The position numbers and the translations under genes are program-made. Positions 6,975 to 53,144 of a stretch of DNA of 64,000 bases are shown here, in pieces (position 1 is the first letter of the stretch; each line of letters opens with the position of its first letter). The stretch lies in contig CAJQUW010003400.1 in assembly GCA_907163375.1 (NCBI GenBank), positions 310,001 through 374,000 on the forward strand, written 5' to 3'. The notes under the pieces are model-generated. The model made no database searches and had not been told where the DNA came from. It saw nothing but the letters and a program-made list of their open reading frames with translations. The DNA is from Prostheceraeus crozeri (taxonomy: Eukaryota; Platyhelminthes; Polycladida; Euryleptidae).

Positions 6975-7690
6975 CAGGGATGCGGAGTCCCATCATTTTG
7001 ATAGGACTCCGACTACGGGTGGCAAGCATATATAGTCTAGTTTTTTTAAAAAAACTGGTAACCTGCATCATAGATCAATATAGGCTTGCCTGAACCTATT
7101 TTTAGTGATCACTGCCGTATCAATTATCAATCGTTTTCGATGAAAGTTTATCAAATGTCGCTATAAGTTGGATGCATGCGACTCGGCTCCTCCCATCTTG
7201 TTGGTGTGCTTTGTACGGTTTTTCTCCAGTCTCTACCAGGCAGGAAAATCTCTCATACTTCTTCAAAAAATATGAGTACACTTTCGATTTATATATGCGC
7301 TTTAGAGGAGACATCACACACGATTAATGTGAGGAATATTCTCAGACAAACTAGCATTTCATTTTTGTCTCTGATGTGACCTTTGATGCGTAGGTGTGAT
7401 CGAGGCTAGGAAGGCTTGTCTTCTCAATAAAATCACCGAGTGAAAAGACTATCCTTTCTTAACTATCACGGTTCATTCCCTCAACTATTGCAAGCTTTGC
7501 ATGCACTGCTGTCTCTGTACTTTTGTTTGACGGAGAAAGTTGACATCAAGACAGTGACAGCTATGCACGAGGACAAATAATTTGTTTGTATTATGTTTCT
7601 GGTCTGGTTATAGGCCGGAGTCCGGAGTTCTATCATTTGATAAGACTCCGACTCCAGCAAAAATGATGGGACTCCGACTCCGCATCCCTG
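6975..7690 (-). mobile_element. hAT-type non-autonomous transposon, family A copy 2
   Basis: Same family and orientation as the element at 2207-2923, with CAGGGATGCGGAGTC at the left and its inverse ending CGCATCCCTG at the right. The flanking 8-mers are ttatatat (6967-6974) and ttatatag (7691-7698), a 7/8 TSD. It landed in an AT dinucleotide-rich stretch (about 6935-6975). The minus-strand remnant of the putative BED finger (7317-7120) is frameshifted relative to copy 1 ('YFLKKYERFSCLVETG' then out of frame). Confidence 0.82.
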
Positions 7691-9244: not shown

Positions 9245-9970
9245 TCAGTTTACGGGGGACACAATAGTGAAGCAAATACTAGGCGGACAATCGTACTCAA
9301 CGTCACTCTCTCCGTAGATGTTCTTCAGATCATTAGATATCAAAACATGATCAAGAATACTATTAAGTCTGGTAGGTCTGGTAACTATGTCCTGGAGTCC
9401 GAGATCAGCACATAGATTGACGACGTTGAAATGATTGAAATCGCCCAACACAATCTGATGATAATTTGGCTTTTCCGAAAGAAAGTCGTCGGATACGCGA
9501 ATGATTACTCGGTGAATATGCTTCAGCTCATCAGCAGAAAGATTAGGTGGTATGTATACACATATCAACATGCATCTAAATTTGATAATGTCGATAATAC
9601 AACAGTCGCATTTCAGGGAGCTAAACAGGTTCTGTTTGACGACAGAAAAGTTGATGTCACTGCGTAGGTATACGGCAGTACCACCACCCCTTCGAACATC
9701 ACGGTCACATCGACAAAGCACATATCCATCAATATCAATAAGGGAAGGATCCACTGCCTCGTTTAACCAAGTCTCCGCTATGCAGCACAGGGATGGAGAT
9801 TTCATTGTTAGAACAGCTCGAACTTCATCAATTTTCGGCAACAAGGAACGTATATTAAACAGTGATACGATTGGGAAAGCAGGAGACTTTGCAGATGAAT
9901 TAGAATTACATGCAGGACCTGAAGTAAACCTGCCTACGTGATCATAAGTCCAACGATTTAAAAACTTCAA
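9245..9970 (-). pseudogene. LINE ORF2 fragment: apurinic/apyrimidinic-type endonuclease domain
   Basis: This is the target-nicking endonuclease of a CR1/Jockey-like LINE. Motifs in order are 'FNIRSLLPK', 'IAETWL', 'RRGGGTAVYLR', 'VYIPPN', 'LGDFNHFNV', 'TRPTR' and 'LDHVLIS'. The final catalytic motif, normally Asp-His before a proline, reads 'YDCPP', so histidine is replaced by cysteine and the domain is probably dead. There is no ATG before the domain. The frame overlaps the ORF1 stop through TTGA at 9970-9967, so the intact parent may use stop-coupled reinitiation or frameshifting. The frame ends at 9245 without any RT. Confidence 0.75.
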
Positions 9971-10698
9971 CGAAAATTTTTGGCGTCACTTCGCAAAACA
10001 ATTCTGTTCCGAAAAATAATGACATCTTCTCCTCTGAGCCTCCTTGATCTCAATTCCTCACGAAGTTGCTTAGATTCGAGTTGCTGCATGGGAGTGAGGT
10101 CTGCATTCAAGTACACATATCTGTAGGTTGTTGATTTTCTAAGCTCACCAGCTTTCTTGAGGATTTCAATTTTGGACTCATAACTGGGACATTGCACTTT
10201 GAGTAGTCTCGGTTTATCCTTTTGAATCCTACCAATGCGCGATACTTGATAATCAGTACCACTAATATCAGGCAACCCAGCTTCTTCAACCACTTTTTGG
10301 AATGCGTCAATATCATGCTCTGTCCTCTCCTGAAGCGAACCACTGACAGTTTCAGGGAGTCCAGAAATAATTATGTTGCATTTTCTTCTAGTTCTTTCTT
10401 CGATTTCACCAAATACATTAGACGGAATGTGATCAAAATTAGTAGAAGTCAAGACATGCTCTATTTTGTCGATTCGCTGATCATGCTGGTCACTGCGCAT
10501 CTTAAGATCGTTCAAACAATTTTCAAACGTTTTCAGCTGCTCAGTTATGCTGTGAACGGAGGAAATAACCTTATCGACTTCCAGTTTAACAAATGACATA
10601 ATTTCCTTCTGAGAATTCGATATCAATTGCTGTACGTCTGCAAGAGTTATTGGTGCAGACGATGAATTTGATCGAGTGTTCCGCTTTGGGGTAACCAT
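9967..10698 (-). CDS. LINE ORF1 protein (coiled coil, RRM-like, RNA chaperone type)
   Basis: A complete 243-codon frame starting at ATG 10698 ('MVTPKRNTRSNSS') and ending TGA at 9967. Heptad-like spacing around residues 20-80 suggests a trimer-forming coiled coil. 'RRKCNIIISGLPE', near residue 100, is the beta-1 strand of the RRM-like fold seen in LINE ORF1 proteins. A 'VSRIGRIQKDKPRLLKVQ' stretch follows, then a basic C-terminal part with 'RSRRLRGEDVI'. Such proteins coat LINE RNA and help strand transfer. It is uninterrupted, while the ORF2 behind it is deleted, so it could still be made if transcribed. Confidence 0.7.
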   Translation of the reverse strand: MVTPKRNTRSNSSSAPITLADVQQLISNSQKEIMSFVKLEVDKVISSVHSITEQLKTFENCLNDLKMRSDQHDQRIDKIEHVLTSTNFDHIPSNVFGEIEERTRRKCNIIISGLPETVSGSLQERTEHDIDAFQKVVEEAGLPDISGTDYQVSRIGRIQKDKPRLLKVQCPSYESKIEILKKAGELRKSTTYRYVYLNADLTPMQQLESKQLREELRSRRLRGEDVIIFRNRIVLRSDAKNFR

Positions 10699-18426: not shown

Positions 18427-19485
18427 ATGGAGGAGATCAATCGTCGTGACATCAACCTAATCGTCGAGACTTTAAGAAGAAATAACTTTAACAACACAAA
18501 AATACACGAGATCATAACAACTGCTTGGGGTGATAAGCGGATATCAGTTAGACGTGTACAACAAGTTATGACTGAGTTTGGAGAAGGTCGCATTCAATTT
18601 GATAGAATTGATGGAAGTGGGCGTCCAAAGTCTCAGAAAAGAATCGATCTTACTCAGATGGTTGCTGATGAGGTGACCGTGAATAGGAGAATTACGTGCT
18701 ACGAGCTTGCTGATAAATTGGATACAAATCATAGAATGATTTACGACATCCTGATAGAAGACCTGCATATGCGATCAATCCAAGATTAAGTGGGTGCCAC
18801 ATAATTTATCCGAGGCAAACAAAGAGGCTCGTGTATCGTGCTGCACTGAGCTTATTGAGAAATTTACAAGGCGCAATATCCATCGCAATCTTGTAGTTGC
18901 AGACGAGAAATGGTTTTTCTGTAGGCCAGTTGGTTGTCCTCAAACCAGAAGGTCTTGGTGTTCAGCTGATGGTGATGTTGATAGAGATCAAATTCCTAAA
19001 CGTTTAACCGTCGACAGAAAAGTCATGGCAATTGTTGCTGTGAATTTTGATGGATTATCGTTTTCTACAGTACTTGAAAGGAATCAGTCTGTAGATTCCG
19101 AATTGTATACTAATTTTTCTGATTGACACAGTTAATTCTTTCACTAACCATGATTTAAGAAATGAAAGAAGAGAGGTGTCATGGGAGAATATGGTTTTGA
19201 TGCATGATAACGCTCGACCACATGTATCACGCCACACTCAAAACTTTTTGGCAGACAAGAATGTTCAGCTACTGTATCAAGCTCCATATTCACCTGACTT
19301 AAATATATGTGATCGCATGATATTTCCTGCTTTGGAAATGAAGAGAAGTGATTTGGAGTTAATGACAAAGGAATCTTTAGAATCCTACTTAAATGACTTT
19401 TACTCCACAAGTAATGAGAAGAGCAGCATTGAAATTGATTGACCACTGCAGAAATGTGATTGCTGCAAACGGCAATTATTTGTGA
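18427..19485 (+). pseudogene. Mariner-like transposase (DD34D), three frameshifts from open
   Basis: Starts at ATG 18427 ('MEEINRRDINLIVETLRRN'). The helix-turn-helix part ('RRVQQVMTEFGEGR', 'GSGRPKS', 'NRRITCYELADKL') is open to 18787. A one-base shift there breaks the 'KWVPHNLS' linker. The first Asp lies in 'VVADEKWFF', the second in 'MHDNARPHVSR' and the third in 'YSPDLNICDR', 34 residues later. Further single shifts fall near 19117 and 19400, and the C-terminus 'HCRNVIAANGNYL' ends at TGA 19485. All three catalytic aspartates remain, so loss of function looks recent. The 'DLN.CD' form of the last motif differs from the commoner 'DLAPSD' seen in mariner 1. Confidence 0.85.
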
Positions 19486-20800: not shown

Positions 20801-20812
20801 AAGATAAAGTAC
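20801..20812 (+). repeat. 12-bp direct repeat (target-site duplication), left
   Basis: aagataaagtac here is repeated exactly at 21255-21266, bracketing the inverted retrozyme-like pair. This implies the whole 442-bp segment was inserted as one piece. Confidence 0.7.
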
Positions 20813-20900
20813 ATAAAGATTGCAGAGTGCCAGTTCGCCTGGGCATTAAATAGAAAGATGTCATCAGACTTGAACAGTTTAAACACAACAATTCCTTGGC

Positions 20901-20947
20901 ATCCGTAGACGCTGCGTTTTGCCCTACAAGGGCTCGTCAGTACGGAT
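20901..20947 (-). ncRNA. Hammerhead ribozyme 1 (core mutated)
   Basis: Read on the minus strand: stem I 5' side AUCCGUA (20947-20941); core box CUGACGA (20940-20934); stem II GCCC-UUGUA-GGGC (20933-20921), a perfect 4-bp stem; AAAA at 20920-20917 where GAAA is required; stem III ACG-CAG-CGU (20917-20909); cleavage base C (20908); stem I 3' side UACGGAU (20907-20901), giving 7 perfect pairs. The G12-to-A change in the GAAA box should abolish cleavage. The fold is otherwise complete. Confidence 0.82.
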
Positions 20948-21154
20948 CGGAATGGCCTTCACTAGCTTAAAATATCTAGAATGACTGAACAAGCTGAAGG
21001 ACTGCACAACATGCTGCTCTGCATTTCCGTATCCTATTATTATCATTCTGCATTTATTTATTCTATTCAATGCCCAGACGAACTTGGCACTCTGCAACAG
21101 TCCTTCAGCTTGTTTAGCCATTCTAGATATTTTAAGCTGGTTTGGGCCATTCCG

Positions 21155-21201
21155 AGCCGTGCTGACGAGCCATTGTAGGGCGAAACGCAGTGTCTACGGC
21201 T
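21155..21201 (+). ncRNA. Hammerhead ribozyme 2 (intact catalytic core)
   Basis: Stem I 5' side AGCCGUG (21155-21161); CUGACGA (21162-21168); stem II GCC...GGC around a 7-base loop (21169-21181), where one of the four pairs in ribozyme 1 is lost; GAAA (21182-21185); stem III ACG-CAG-UGU (21185-21193) with one G-U pair; cleavage after C21194; stem I 3' side UACGGCU (21195-21201), 7 pairs including one G-U. All invariant core bases are present. Against ribozyme 1, stem I shows a compensatory U-A to G-C swap. Predicted type I topology, because stem I is the open end. Confidence 0.87.
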
Positions 21202-21254
21202 GTCAAGGAATTGTTGTGCTTAAACTGTTCAAGTCTGAGGACATCTTTCTATAT

Positions 21255-21266
21255 AAGATAAAGTAC
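21255..21266 (+). repeat. 12-bp direct repeat (target-site duplication), right
   Basis: Exact second copy of aagataaagtac; see 20801-20812. Confidence 0.7.
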
Positions 21267-21803: not shown

Positions 21804-21847
21804 AACGATAGATTTGTAGTTTTTGAGATGAAAAAAGTGATTTTTTC

Positions 21848-22406
21848 CAGGGATGTGGAGTCGGAGTCCTATCAAATGATAGGACTCCGGCCTTCAACTA
21901 GACCCGAAATATAATACAAACAAATTATTTATCCTCGTGCATAGCTGTCTTCCTAGCCTCGATCATACCTACGCACCAAAGGTTGCATCAGAGACAAAAA
22001 TGAAATGCTAGTTTGTTTGAGAACATTACCTTTCACCCTCACGTTAATCGTGTATGTGATGGTTCCTCTAAAGCGCATATTTAAATCGAAAGTGTACTCA
22101 TACTTTTTGAAGAAGGATGGGGGATTTTCTTGTCTGGTAGAAACTGGAGATAAACCGTGTGAAGCACACATCAAGAAGATGGGAGGAGCCGAGTCGCATG
22201 CATCCAACTTATAGCGACATTTGATAGACTTTCATCAAAAATGATTGATAATTGATGCAGCAATGATCACTAAAAATAGGTTCAGGTAAGCCTGATGATC
22301 TATGATGTAGGTTTCCAGTTTTTTTTGAAAAAAACTAGGCGATATATACTTGCCACCCGTAGTCGGAGTCGGAGTCCTATCAAAATGATAGGACTCCGCA
22401 TCCCAG
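21848..22406 (+). mobile_element. hAT-type non-autonomous transposon, family A copy 3 (inverted, shorter)
   Basis: A 559-bp copy in the opposite orientation to copies 1 and 2. The left end is CAGGGATGTGGAGTC and the right end ...GCATCCCAG carries one substitution in the terminal CTG. The flanking 8-mers are attttttc (21840-21847) and atttattc (22407-22414), a 7/8 TSD. The putative BED-finger remnant is now on the plus strand (22005-22214; 'YFLKKDGGFSCLVETG', 'GAESHASNL') and nearly identical to copy 1. The element lies between motif copies 1 and 2, so it interrupts the 21.8-24.1 kb structure. Confidence 0.83.
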
Positions 22407-22530
22407 ATTTATTCAGTTTCTATCGGACTTCAAACTATCATGATATTTCATTCATACGCATAAGTTCATTGTATTAGAATCCTGTTCACTACTACTGGCT
22501 ATATACGCTGAAATATCAGAATGGGTCTAT

Positions 22531-46022: not shown

Positions 46023-47397
46023 GTAGTAATAATAATAATAATAATAATAAAGCATCTTTATTCAGAAAGATTGAAAATCAAACATAGCACAAGTGAATCA
46101 ACTAAAAGTAGAAAATTTACATTTGGACATACATTTGAAAGCATTTTTTGGCATAGAGTTTGCTATACAATACAGTGCAATATGGAATAAATGAACAGGC
46201 TCTCCGTTTAGACTTCAGTATTGGTATCCGCAAATGACCAGAAAAAGTCAATCTCTGAGGACTGAGGTAATGCAGGACACTGTCAGTACATAAAAGTGCT
46301 TTGAATTCCTTTAAGGCTCTTGACTCACGTCGATCGGACAATGCAATGAAATGCGAGCAAGCACAATCCTTTCCACAGATAATTCTATGAGAACGCTTCC
46401 GGATAGCTTCTATCTTTAGGCTTTCTTTCTTGCTTATGCCAACAAAAAGGGGCGAATTATACTCCAAGATACTCAAAAAGTAGACGTTATGCACAGTAAT
46501 CAGATCTTCTTTAGATAACACAGTTTTTAGGACTCTCAGGACATTCACTCTACGAGCCGCGAGCTTACAGGTGCGCTCTATGTGCTGATCCCATCTCAAA
46601 TTGTCTTGAAACAACACTCCTAAAATTCGTAGCGTGTTACATAGCAATGAGTCAGATGAAACAGTAGGTCGAAAGTTGGAACAAGAGAATAACATGCACT
46701 TTGTCTTAGATTGATTAATTAAGAGTCCATGTGAACTACACCAATTTATCATATTAGACATCTCAAGATGAATCAAATGGTCTACAGACTCGTTATTACA
46801 ATAAGGCACTAGCACAATGATGTCATCAGCGTACTTGATCATGCTTGCTGACGTCGAAAAAGGTCGCAAAGAGCTTAGCTGTACATTATACACATAGGGG
46901 CCTAAAATTGAGCCCTGTGGCACTCCAGAAGACACGTTTACAATGGAGCTATAAATATGACTATTTAAACATACGCGCTGACATCTGTCCTGAAGATAAT
47001 CACAAATCCAGTGAACAAACTTTTTTGGGAAGCTGAATTGAATCAAAGTATCTATTATAGAATCATGAGAAAGTCGATCGAATGCCTTACTCATATCAAT
47101 GGAAATTAAAAGAACACCTGACGTCTCAGGCAAGTGCAAGTTAGAAGTTACAAACTCATGAATATAAATTTGAGCGTGGAGCGTTGATGAGGCCGGCCTG
47201 AAACCAAACTGATTGTAACCGCAACATTGAAGAAGGCGTTCCTTTATGTGTTTCAAAATTGATTTTTCCAGAATCTTGCTCATTACCGGAAGAAGTGAGA
47301 TTGGCCTCAAATCACTTAAAGACGGATTCTTCGTTTTCGGCACAGGTGCAATGTTTGTACTGTGCAATTTCTCCTTTAGTACTTGCGGTTTCAAAAG
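46023..47397 (-). mobile_element. 5'-truncated non-LTR retrotransposon inserted in gypsy RT
   Basis: Minus-strand LINE whose 3' tail is a TAA/TTA microsatellite (46024-46053). The 5' truncation lies near 47397, immediately next to resumed gypsy RT sequence. The RT frame is open, so it is among the younger insertions here. Confidence 0.8.
46117..47394 (-). CDS. Non-LTR reverse transcriptase, open 425-codon partial frame
   Basis: RT and thumb region of a Jockey/CR1-group LINE. Seen in order: 'DLRPISLLPVMSKILEKS' (fingers), 'QFGFRPASSTLHA', motif A 'LLISIDMSKAFDRLSH', motif B 'SSGVPQGSILGPYVYN', motif C 'IKYADDIIVLV' with the YADD active site, motif D 'HGLLINQSKTKCMLF', motif E 'LRILGVLFQDNLRWD', then a thumb with 'YFLSILEYNSPLFVG'. 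All catalytic aspartates are present with no stop or shift. The frame has no ATG at its 5' edge because the copy is truncated, and no endonuclease is included, so it cannot transpose itself. The group is judged from motif style. Confidence 0.85.
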   Translation of the reverse strand: MKPQVLKEKLHSTNIAPVPKTKNPSLSDLRPISLLPVMSKILEKSILKHIKERLLQCCGYNQFGFRPASSTLHAQIYIHEFVTSNLHLPETSGVLLISIDMSKAFDRLSHDSIIDTLIQFSFPKKFVHWICDYLQDRCQRVCLNSHIYSSIVNVSSGVPQGSILGPYVYNVQLSSLRPFSTSASMIKYADDIIVLVPYCNNESVDHLIHLEMSNMINWCSSHGLLINQSKTKCMLFSCSNFRPTVSSDSLLCNTLRILGVLFQDNLRWDQHIERTCKLAARRVNVLRVLKTVLSKEDLITVHNVYFLSILEYNSPLFVGISKKESLKIEAIRKRSHRIICGKDCACSHFIALSDRRESRALKEFKALLCTDSVLHYLSPQRLTFSGHLRIPILKSKRRACSFIPYCTVLYSKLYAKKCFQMYVQM

Positions 47398-47400
47398 CAG

Positions 47401-47532
47401 GTGAAGCTAGAATGTGTTGATTTTCGTCACTTGAACAAATTCATGATGCGTGATATTTATCAAATGCCAACTTTTGAGTCGTTTCACTGTACGTGAAAAA
47501 AGAAGACATATACCACTCGCGGAGTTCTTACA
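47401..47532 (+). pseudogene. Gypsy RT continuation fused to 3' LTR remnant
   Basis: 'VKLECVDFRHLNKFMMRDIY' followed by Q-M-P-T-F-E is the conserved gypsy RT block that belongs just after 46022. Directly behind it (47478-47532) comes the LTR-like sequence also found at 43563-43617. The rest of RT, RNase H and integrase are therefore deleted. Confidence 0.75.
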
Positions 47533-52626: not shown

Positions 52627-53144
52627 AAGACATTCCTGATCGCTTTTTTACATCGAGGAGTCAGGACGATTGCAGGAAATTGCTCGTCTGGGGAGCCATT
52701 TGGAGTGATGGTGATGCATTAACTGCATGTTATGAGGGGAAACATGAACTCTGAACGCTACATTCGAGTGCTCGAAGAACATGTTTATCTTTTAGCACTC
52801 AGTTTAGGTAATCCATCATCTGATTGGATTCTCATGGATGACAATGCTCCATATTATCGTGTCAGGGCAACTCAATTGTATAAAAGACAGGCAGGAATAC
52901 GAACCTTAGACTGTCCGGCAAGGTCTCCTGACTTGAATCCAATCGAGCATGTCAGGTCTACCTTTAAACGGCGAGTTCGTCGACGAATCTGTCCTGGCAA
53001 TGATTTGAATCGGTTGGAATCTTTGGTGAAGCAGGAGTGGAATCAGATTGATCAACAGATGATCAGAAATTTAATCGGCAGCATGCCTAATCGCATCCGA
53101 AAGGTAATAGAACTTAGAGGAGACCAAGCTGGCTACTAGGGATG

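Follow-up and report, generated by a model that had tools for sequence, protein, structure and literature searches.

Organization of the locus

The window, a stretch of 64,000 nt from the assembly of the polyclad flatworm Prostheceraeus crozeri, contains between positions 20801 and 21266 two short units in opposite orientation, each with a hammerhead ribozyme fold. The inverted arms, 20846-21004 and 21098-21256, cover 159 nt and are 90% complementary, which confirms the head-to-head pair reported in the initial annotation. Unit 1 (20812-21035, minus strand, 224 bp), the tailed arm, is 91% identical to the natural unit of L021, the locus that serves as the family reference, and spans unit coordinate 68 to coordinate 44 of the next unit. 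Unit 2 (21061-21252, plus strand), delimited by alignment to the same natural unit, is the arm devoid of a tail, and unit positions 37-98 (62 nt) are absent from it between 21097 and 21098. The size of ~190 bp first ascribed to the units has thus to be revised, as relatives give ~248 bp and the right unit misses an internal segment. The inner junction is occupied by a 25-nt filler (21036-21060), part of which resembles the unit region that immediately precedes the arm. At its outer end, unit 1 carries a tail of ~38 nt (20812-20850, minus strand, with an approximate boundary) that extends between two sites termed T and N. This tail is restricted to the unit 1 arm and equals the block that the initial annotation had found displaced between the two units (20820-20855 and 21061-21097; 37 columns, 92%).

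The pair is bordered on either side by an exact 12-bp direct repeat, AAGATAAAGTAC, located at 20801-20812, where the final base may be the element's own, and at 21255-21266. It is a probable target-site duplication and, since it encloses the whole pair, the segment 20801-21266 is most likely a single insertion. Among the listed window frames of at least 110 aa, none covers this segment, and the 248-nt unit is devoid of a reverse transcriptase and GIY-YIG endonuclease frame. Judged from predicted domains and repeats, the surroundings are transposon-rich. The frames at 46117-47406 (minus strand), 9245-9985 (minus strand), 19095-19442 (plus strand), and 52723-53139 (plus strand) are assigned to RVT_1, Exo_endo_phos, and two DDE_3 transposases, respectively. 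A dispersed repeat is present in three window copies of 87-94% identity (2207-2914, 6975-7655, and 21847-22412), and a distance of ~600 bp separates one of these copies from the pair.

Hammerhead ribozymes of the two units

When 511 nt are searched, the Rfam model reports a type I hammerhead in each unit, at 20901-20947 on the minus strand in unit 1 (24.7 bits, E 0.001) and at 21156-21200 on the plus strand in unit 2 (24.2 bits, E 0.0015), in agreement with the folds assigned from the sequence at the outset. The covariance model thus scores both folds, but the two scores lie below the Rfam gathering score for hammerheads (34 bits), and a search of the whole window at E up to 1 lists neither of them, for which we blame its stricter filters. 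The sibling locus L049 reaches 33.0 bits (E 5.9e-7, 161 nt searched alone), and none of the 20 sibling loci fetched for an Rfam search, L049 among them, attains the gathering score. This score is exceeded at seven more distant places of the host genome (35.6 to 47 bits; 73 candidates scored), five of which sit in near-identical 3-kb stretches. The core of unit 2 is intact, and its cleavage is presumably to be expected after 21194 (GTC^TACGG), as in the known hammerhead core. In unit 1, G12 is changed to A at 20920. This position is described as that of the general base of the hammerhead (PMC6155905), and the substitution probably leaves the unit 1 ribozyme inactive.

The hammerhead fold is kept in six divergent sequences, in which 97.4% of the alignment cells are paired, as against 28-40% when the partners are slid by 1-3 columns. 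Both sides have changed in 2 of the 19 hammerhead pairs of these sequences, a number reached by 50 of 500 shuffles, and the covariation score of the six-sequence alignment is reached by 5 of 500. Over 71 distinct close copies, the covariation test is uninformative, the majority of the changes looking like decay. Isolated hammerhead pieces of 76-78 nt display folding energies no better than those of shuffles (z 0.26, -0.88, and -0.64), and the minimum-energy fold of unit 2 of the window is not the hammerhead.

A family of mostly head-to-head copies

With up to three mismatches, the 38-nt core is found at 461 and 429 places of the host genome and its reversed pattern at 0 and 0, so chance does not account for the family. 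It amounts to at least 890 core matches in the 2.05-Gb assembly, of which 63 loci were examined. The assembly yielded one COX1 match. Among its listed relatives (at least 120), the three closest stand at 91%, 78%, and 77%, and the best ones bearing a name are the polyclads Pseudostylochus (72%) and Stylochus (71%); this single marker, which could stem from contamination, points to a probable polyclad host. The first sample, for which the pair served as the query, comprises the 39 scored loci other than the window, and the second the 26 new loci out of the 40 that a single-arm query scored. Three loci were dropped as duplicates according to their flanks, which leaves 63 independent loci, window included; L034 and L038 were both retained despite 108 nt of common flank at 93%. 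Both samples consist of the best-scoring copies and hence favour young or complete ones.

The natural unit, with L021 as a reference, measures 248 nt. Some loci, such as L016, L021, and L033, hold more than one unit in tandem, an arrangement that is present without being the main form of the family. These tandem copies and the unit length are in line with the tandem units of ~150-450 bp of metazoan retrozymes and, together with the type I hammerhead, bear out the retrozyme-like nature initially proposed. Among the 63 loci, 46 are head-to-head, 17 single, and none tail-to-tail, while the sample obtained with the single-arm query comprises 29 head-to-head loci out of 38. At least two of the loci classed as single (L032 and L043) seem to hold a very short inverted piece.

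Two outer sites, one of each per pair

The outer ends fall into two classes, N (unit -5 to 15) and T (unit 38 to 52), the limits of which were drawn after the ends had been seen. Where both outer ends of a pair could be assigned to a class (39 pairs), 37 pairs combine one end of each, compared with 19.4 expected by free choice (P 1.3e-9), the exceptions being two N+N pairs and no T+T pair; this count leaves out the 7 of 46 pairs having an end outside N and T. With a T end on one arm and an N end ~38 nt off on the other, the displaced block corresponds to the tail that Penelope-like elements (PLEs) are described to carry on one side (PMC3846280, PMC11167929). The displacement itself stands, but not its interpretation as a circular permutation, the block being an optional 3' extension carried by one arm.

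Of the 46 pairs, 16 are enclosed by exact direct repeats 11 bp long or longer, versus 1 of 2070 mismatched flank combinations. For repeats of at least 8 bp, the figures are 23 of 46 and 54 of 2070. Thirty pairs are without an exact repeat of the former length and 23 without one of the latter. The 16 longer repeats have a G+C content of 25%, compared with 37% for the window. The same word, which reads GACATCTTTCTATTC at N and GCAATCTTTATGAT at T (e.g. in L021 near 431-443 and 639-652), precedes both start sites of the cDNAs and is possibly a recognition motif.

Inner junctions and the nature of the template

The inner junctions vary between copies, with gaps ranging from -19 to 51 nt, and the inner ends of paired arms are never within 10 nt of each other (0/37, versus a shuffled mean of 3.7). 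In 10 of 37 pairs (P 1.5e-5, post hoc), the inner end of the T-side arm coincides with the N site (unit 0-12), which is expected if its cDNA meets a second cDNA that was begun at N along a shared multimeric RNA. Inner ends of the arm without a tail are enriched at unit 115-127 (7/37 versus 1.9 under a flat spread) and amount to 5/37 at unit 212-228 (versus 2.5); both clusters perhaps reflect pauses at RNA structure. A template ending at the ribozyme cut was considered and rejected: inner ends fall within unit 190-200 in 2/37 and 0/37 cases, with 1.6 expected for each. Neither of the window units starts or stops at the cut site.

Rare variants are common to the arms of one locus five times as often as between loci (0.267 versus 0.053), and the arms of a given locus diverge on average by 0.083, no less than those of different loci (0.086). 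Later gene conversion between arms could be a further source of common variants. Adjacent units of the same arm differ by 13.5% in L016 and by 13.7% in L034, and one of these units differs from the other arm by just 4.7% and 3.7%, respectively, a pattern suggesting that a multimer of unlike units served as the template. The outer unit of an arm of L016 (387-600) is devoid of ~40 nt across the hammerhead core, so a ribozyme-less unit was copied beside a ribozyme-bearing one. Among the 14 head-to-head loci for which the two hammerheads are listed, L022 (G8A) and L066 (G8C) have the same core change in both arms. The template inserted at these two loci thus had a ribozyme that was probably dead, which suggests that the ribozyme is dispensable for insertion.

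Penelope-type elements of the host

GIY-YIG loci are many in the host genome (150 scored out of 11858 candidates). Frames of 707 and 672 aa, which combine RVT_1 and GIY-YIG domains, are located in tandem arrays (L104 and L105). The PLE-type arrays L104, L105, and L106 are 99.9-100% identical over the compared overlap, and the latter two contain an additional long upstream frame. In these three arrays, an Rfam search at E up to 1 returned no hammerhead and one chance-level histone stem-loop, and a motif scan reported no hammerhead. The similarity between the retrozyme unit and 30 of the many GIY-YIG loci is at chance level, with no sequence link, and hence does not designate a PLE partner.

Close opposite-strand GIY-YIG neighbours among the listed matches are four (C2673, C7445, C12229, and C692), all head-to-head. 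All three GIY-YIG pairs whose arms can be aligned combine repeats of 12-14 bp with ends of unequal length: L084 has a 12-bp repeat and an excess of 24 nt on the right side alone, L115 a 14-bp repeat and ~37 nt in excess on the left, and L116 a 12-bp repeat with 12 nt on the left versus 25 nt on the right. The pair L117 has no alignable arms. As the L084 frames comprise the endonuclease part alone, the label PLE-type is based for these pairs on the domain and on the frames of neighbours. In the PLE loci L077, L084, and L088, no clean end classes are observed, the ends differing between copies by up to ~180 nt and not by one tail length.

Comparison with known retroelements

The metazoan non-LTR retrozymes, as described in PMC7229834, resemble the family by their type I hammerhead, short non-autonomous unit (~170-400 nt), high copy number, some tandem copies, and the occurrence of PLEs in the same genome, and platyhelminths are named there among the retrozyme-bearing phyla (Cervera and de la Pena 2020). 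In that description they are tandem repeats and make circular RNA, whereas most copies examined here are head-to-head with a one-sided tail. The plant LTR retrozymes (PMC4918200) are also small non-autonomous retroelements with hammerheads, but are described with LTRs, PBS, PPT, type III hammerheads, and 4-bp duplications.

PLE inserts are reported to show 8-10-bp duplications and to contain inverted pLTRs, one of which may bear an additional tail of 31 bp, head-to-head being the inverted arrangement most frequently observed (PMC3846280). The pair shares with elements such as Pen2a of Adineta vaga the head-to-head inverted terminal unit, the short duplication around the insert, and an optional tail (~31 nt in Pen2a) on one inverted unit; hammerheads are found in many PLEs. 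AT-rich targets are another common feature (PMC11167929), the PLE protein studied there cutting and extending both strands from start sites that bracket the tail. That element, Poseidon PAc of Anolis, resembles the family by its two start sites on either side of a 30-40-nt tail and by the extension of both target strands, and its RNA with a dead ribozyme is still inserted in vitro, in agreement with L022 and L066. In contrast, PAc is autonomous and, in the in vitro data given, its starts show no strand preference, so that system does not account for the one-of-each rule. PLEs differ further in that the retrozyme unit lacks their reverse transcriptase and endonuclease frames and does not match the 30 GIY-YIG loci, and in that the family hammerhead possesses a helix III while the PLE form is minimal. 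Overall, the pair behaves like a PLE insertion, is a metazoan retrozyme by its unit and ribozyme, and is not itself a PLE.

Proposed insertion mechanism and alternatives

The window pair probably results from one insertion of a non-autonomous hammerhead retroelement by PLE-type machinery. An endonuclease would cut both strands of an AT-rich site ~12 bp apart, and each exposed 3' end would then prime cDNA synthesis on the element RNA, one cDNA beginning at T and the other at N, ~38 nt upstream. The two cDNAs would be connected head to head, either across a short filler or with microhomology that is minimal or absent, and repair would leave the ~12-bp duplication. The agent would be a PLE protein, and both cDNAs may often have a single multimeric RNA as their template, in the manner of twin priming, the step of which we are least sure. 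Support for this scheme comes from the two outer sites, the one-of-each rule, the variable inner junctions, and the direct repeats. The intact PLE-type frames of the host and the similar anatomy of three GIY-YIG pairs support it as well, and so do the preponderance of head-to-head loci, the T-side inner ends at N, and the rare variants common to both arms. Conversely, the 17 single loci out of 63, the 30 of 46 pairs without a repeat of at least 11 bp, and the 7 of 46 pairs with unclassed ends count against it, as do the two N+N pairs, the chance-level similarity to the 30 GIY-YIG loci, the arm divergence that is no lower within loci than between them, and the ends of the PLE loci L077, L084, and L088. 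A broader proposal, which we put forward tentatively and which may well not hold in full, is that Penelope-type proteins insert metazoan retrozymes by priming from both cut strands on one multimeric RNA, for which neither cleavage nor circularity would be required, one strand starting at T and the other at N, at most one unit upstream; the ribozyme would be dispensable for insertion and the head-to-head form the normal product of Penelope-type retrotransposition, not an accident.

L1-like twin priming by a LINE enzyme, that is, ordinary target priming, would also yield the head-to-head order and the duplications. The 15-bp duplications around Nematostella repeats have been likened to LINE insertion (PMC4918200), and the window does contain LINE-like reverse-transcriptase and endonuclease frames. 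In L1 inversions, the second priming point is scattered. Here, the outer ends are confined to two sites ~38 nt apart, one of each in 37 of 39 pairs, which makes a LINE enzyme an unlikely agent. The tail, moreover, is a described PLE feature. The initial annotation regarded the units as circular permutations, as expected of copies of circular or concatemeric RNA cut by the ribozyme; under such an origin, each arm would be a copy of a ribozyme-made RNA circle opened at a different point. Metazoan retrozymes do produce circular RNAs (PMC7229834), and block and arm do swap order in the window taken alone. However, the outer ends are two fixed sites and not random openings, the real unit of 248 nt implies that the window arms are not exact turns, and the inner ends show no hot spot at the cut site. 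The G8 changes in both arms of L022 and L066, and the unlike neighbouring units of L016 and L034, one of which matches the other arm, also run counter to this origin, which appears quite improbable; a circular template as such is unsupported rather than contradicted by the cut-site counts.

Inverted arms are equally predicted by fold-back self-priming, in which one cDNA folds back and serves as its own template; PMC3846280 favours this explanation for the palindromic junctions of PLEs. For the retrozyme family it is contradicted at both extremities of the arms, as the inner ends never come within 10 nt of each other and the outer ends, which should be equal, are unequal in 37 of 39 pairs, and we give it very little credence. 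Long inverted arms and flanking direct repeats would also befit a foldback DNA transposon or a MITE with terminal inverted repeats, and a longer ordinary transposon of which the arms are the termini had been named at the outset as the finding that would overturn the retrozyme reading. With arm lengths and inner junctions that depend on the locus, unequal inverted ends, and single as well as tandem copies, no constant element with equal ends is seen among the loci examined, and such an origin can be practically dismissed.

The insertion by PLE-type machinery favoured here bears on which enzyme moves metazoan retrozymes. PLEs have been proposed as a strong candidate (PMC7229834) because they share type I hammerheads and a tandem arrangement with retrozymes and co-occur with them. 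In the present family, it is the insertions that exhibit countable PLE-like features, namely two start sites, each used once per insert, and inner junctions that vary. The data oppose, at least for this retrozyme family, the self-priming account of head-to-head PLE copies given in PMC3846280, and the family data set insertion and ribozyme activity apart. Within the literature searched, no description of head-to-head retrozymes was found, and such retrozymes with a countable two-site rule look new in that scope.

A head-to-head arrangement is also observed in the five near-identical stretches of ~3 kb mentioned above (L107-L111), which contain a divergent family member with the best-scoring hammerheads (47 bits) and a short head-to-head inverted repeat. 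They may represent a retrozyme copy amplified inside another repeat.
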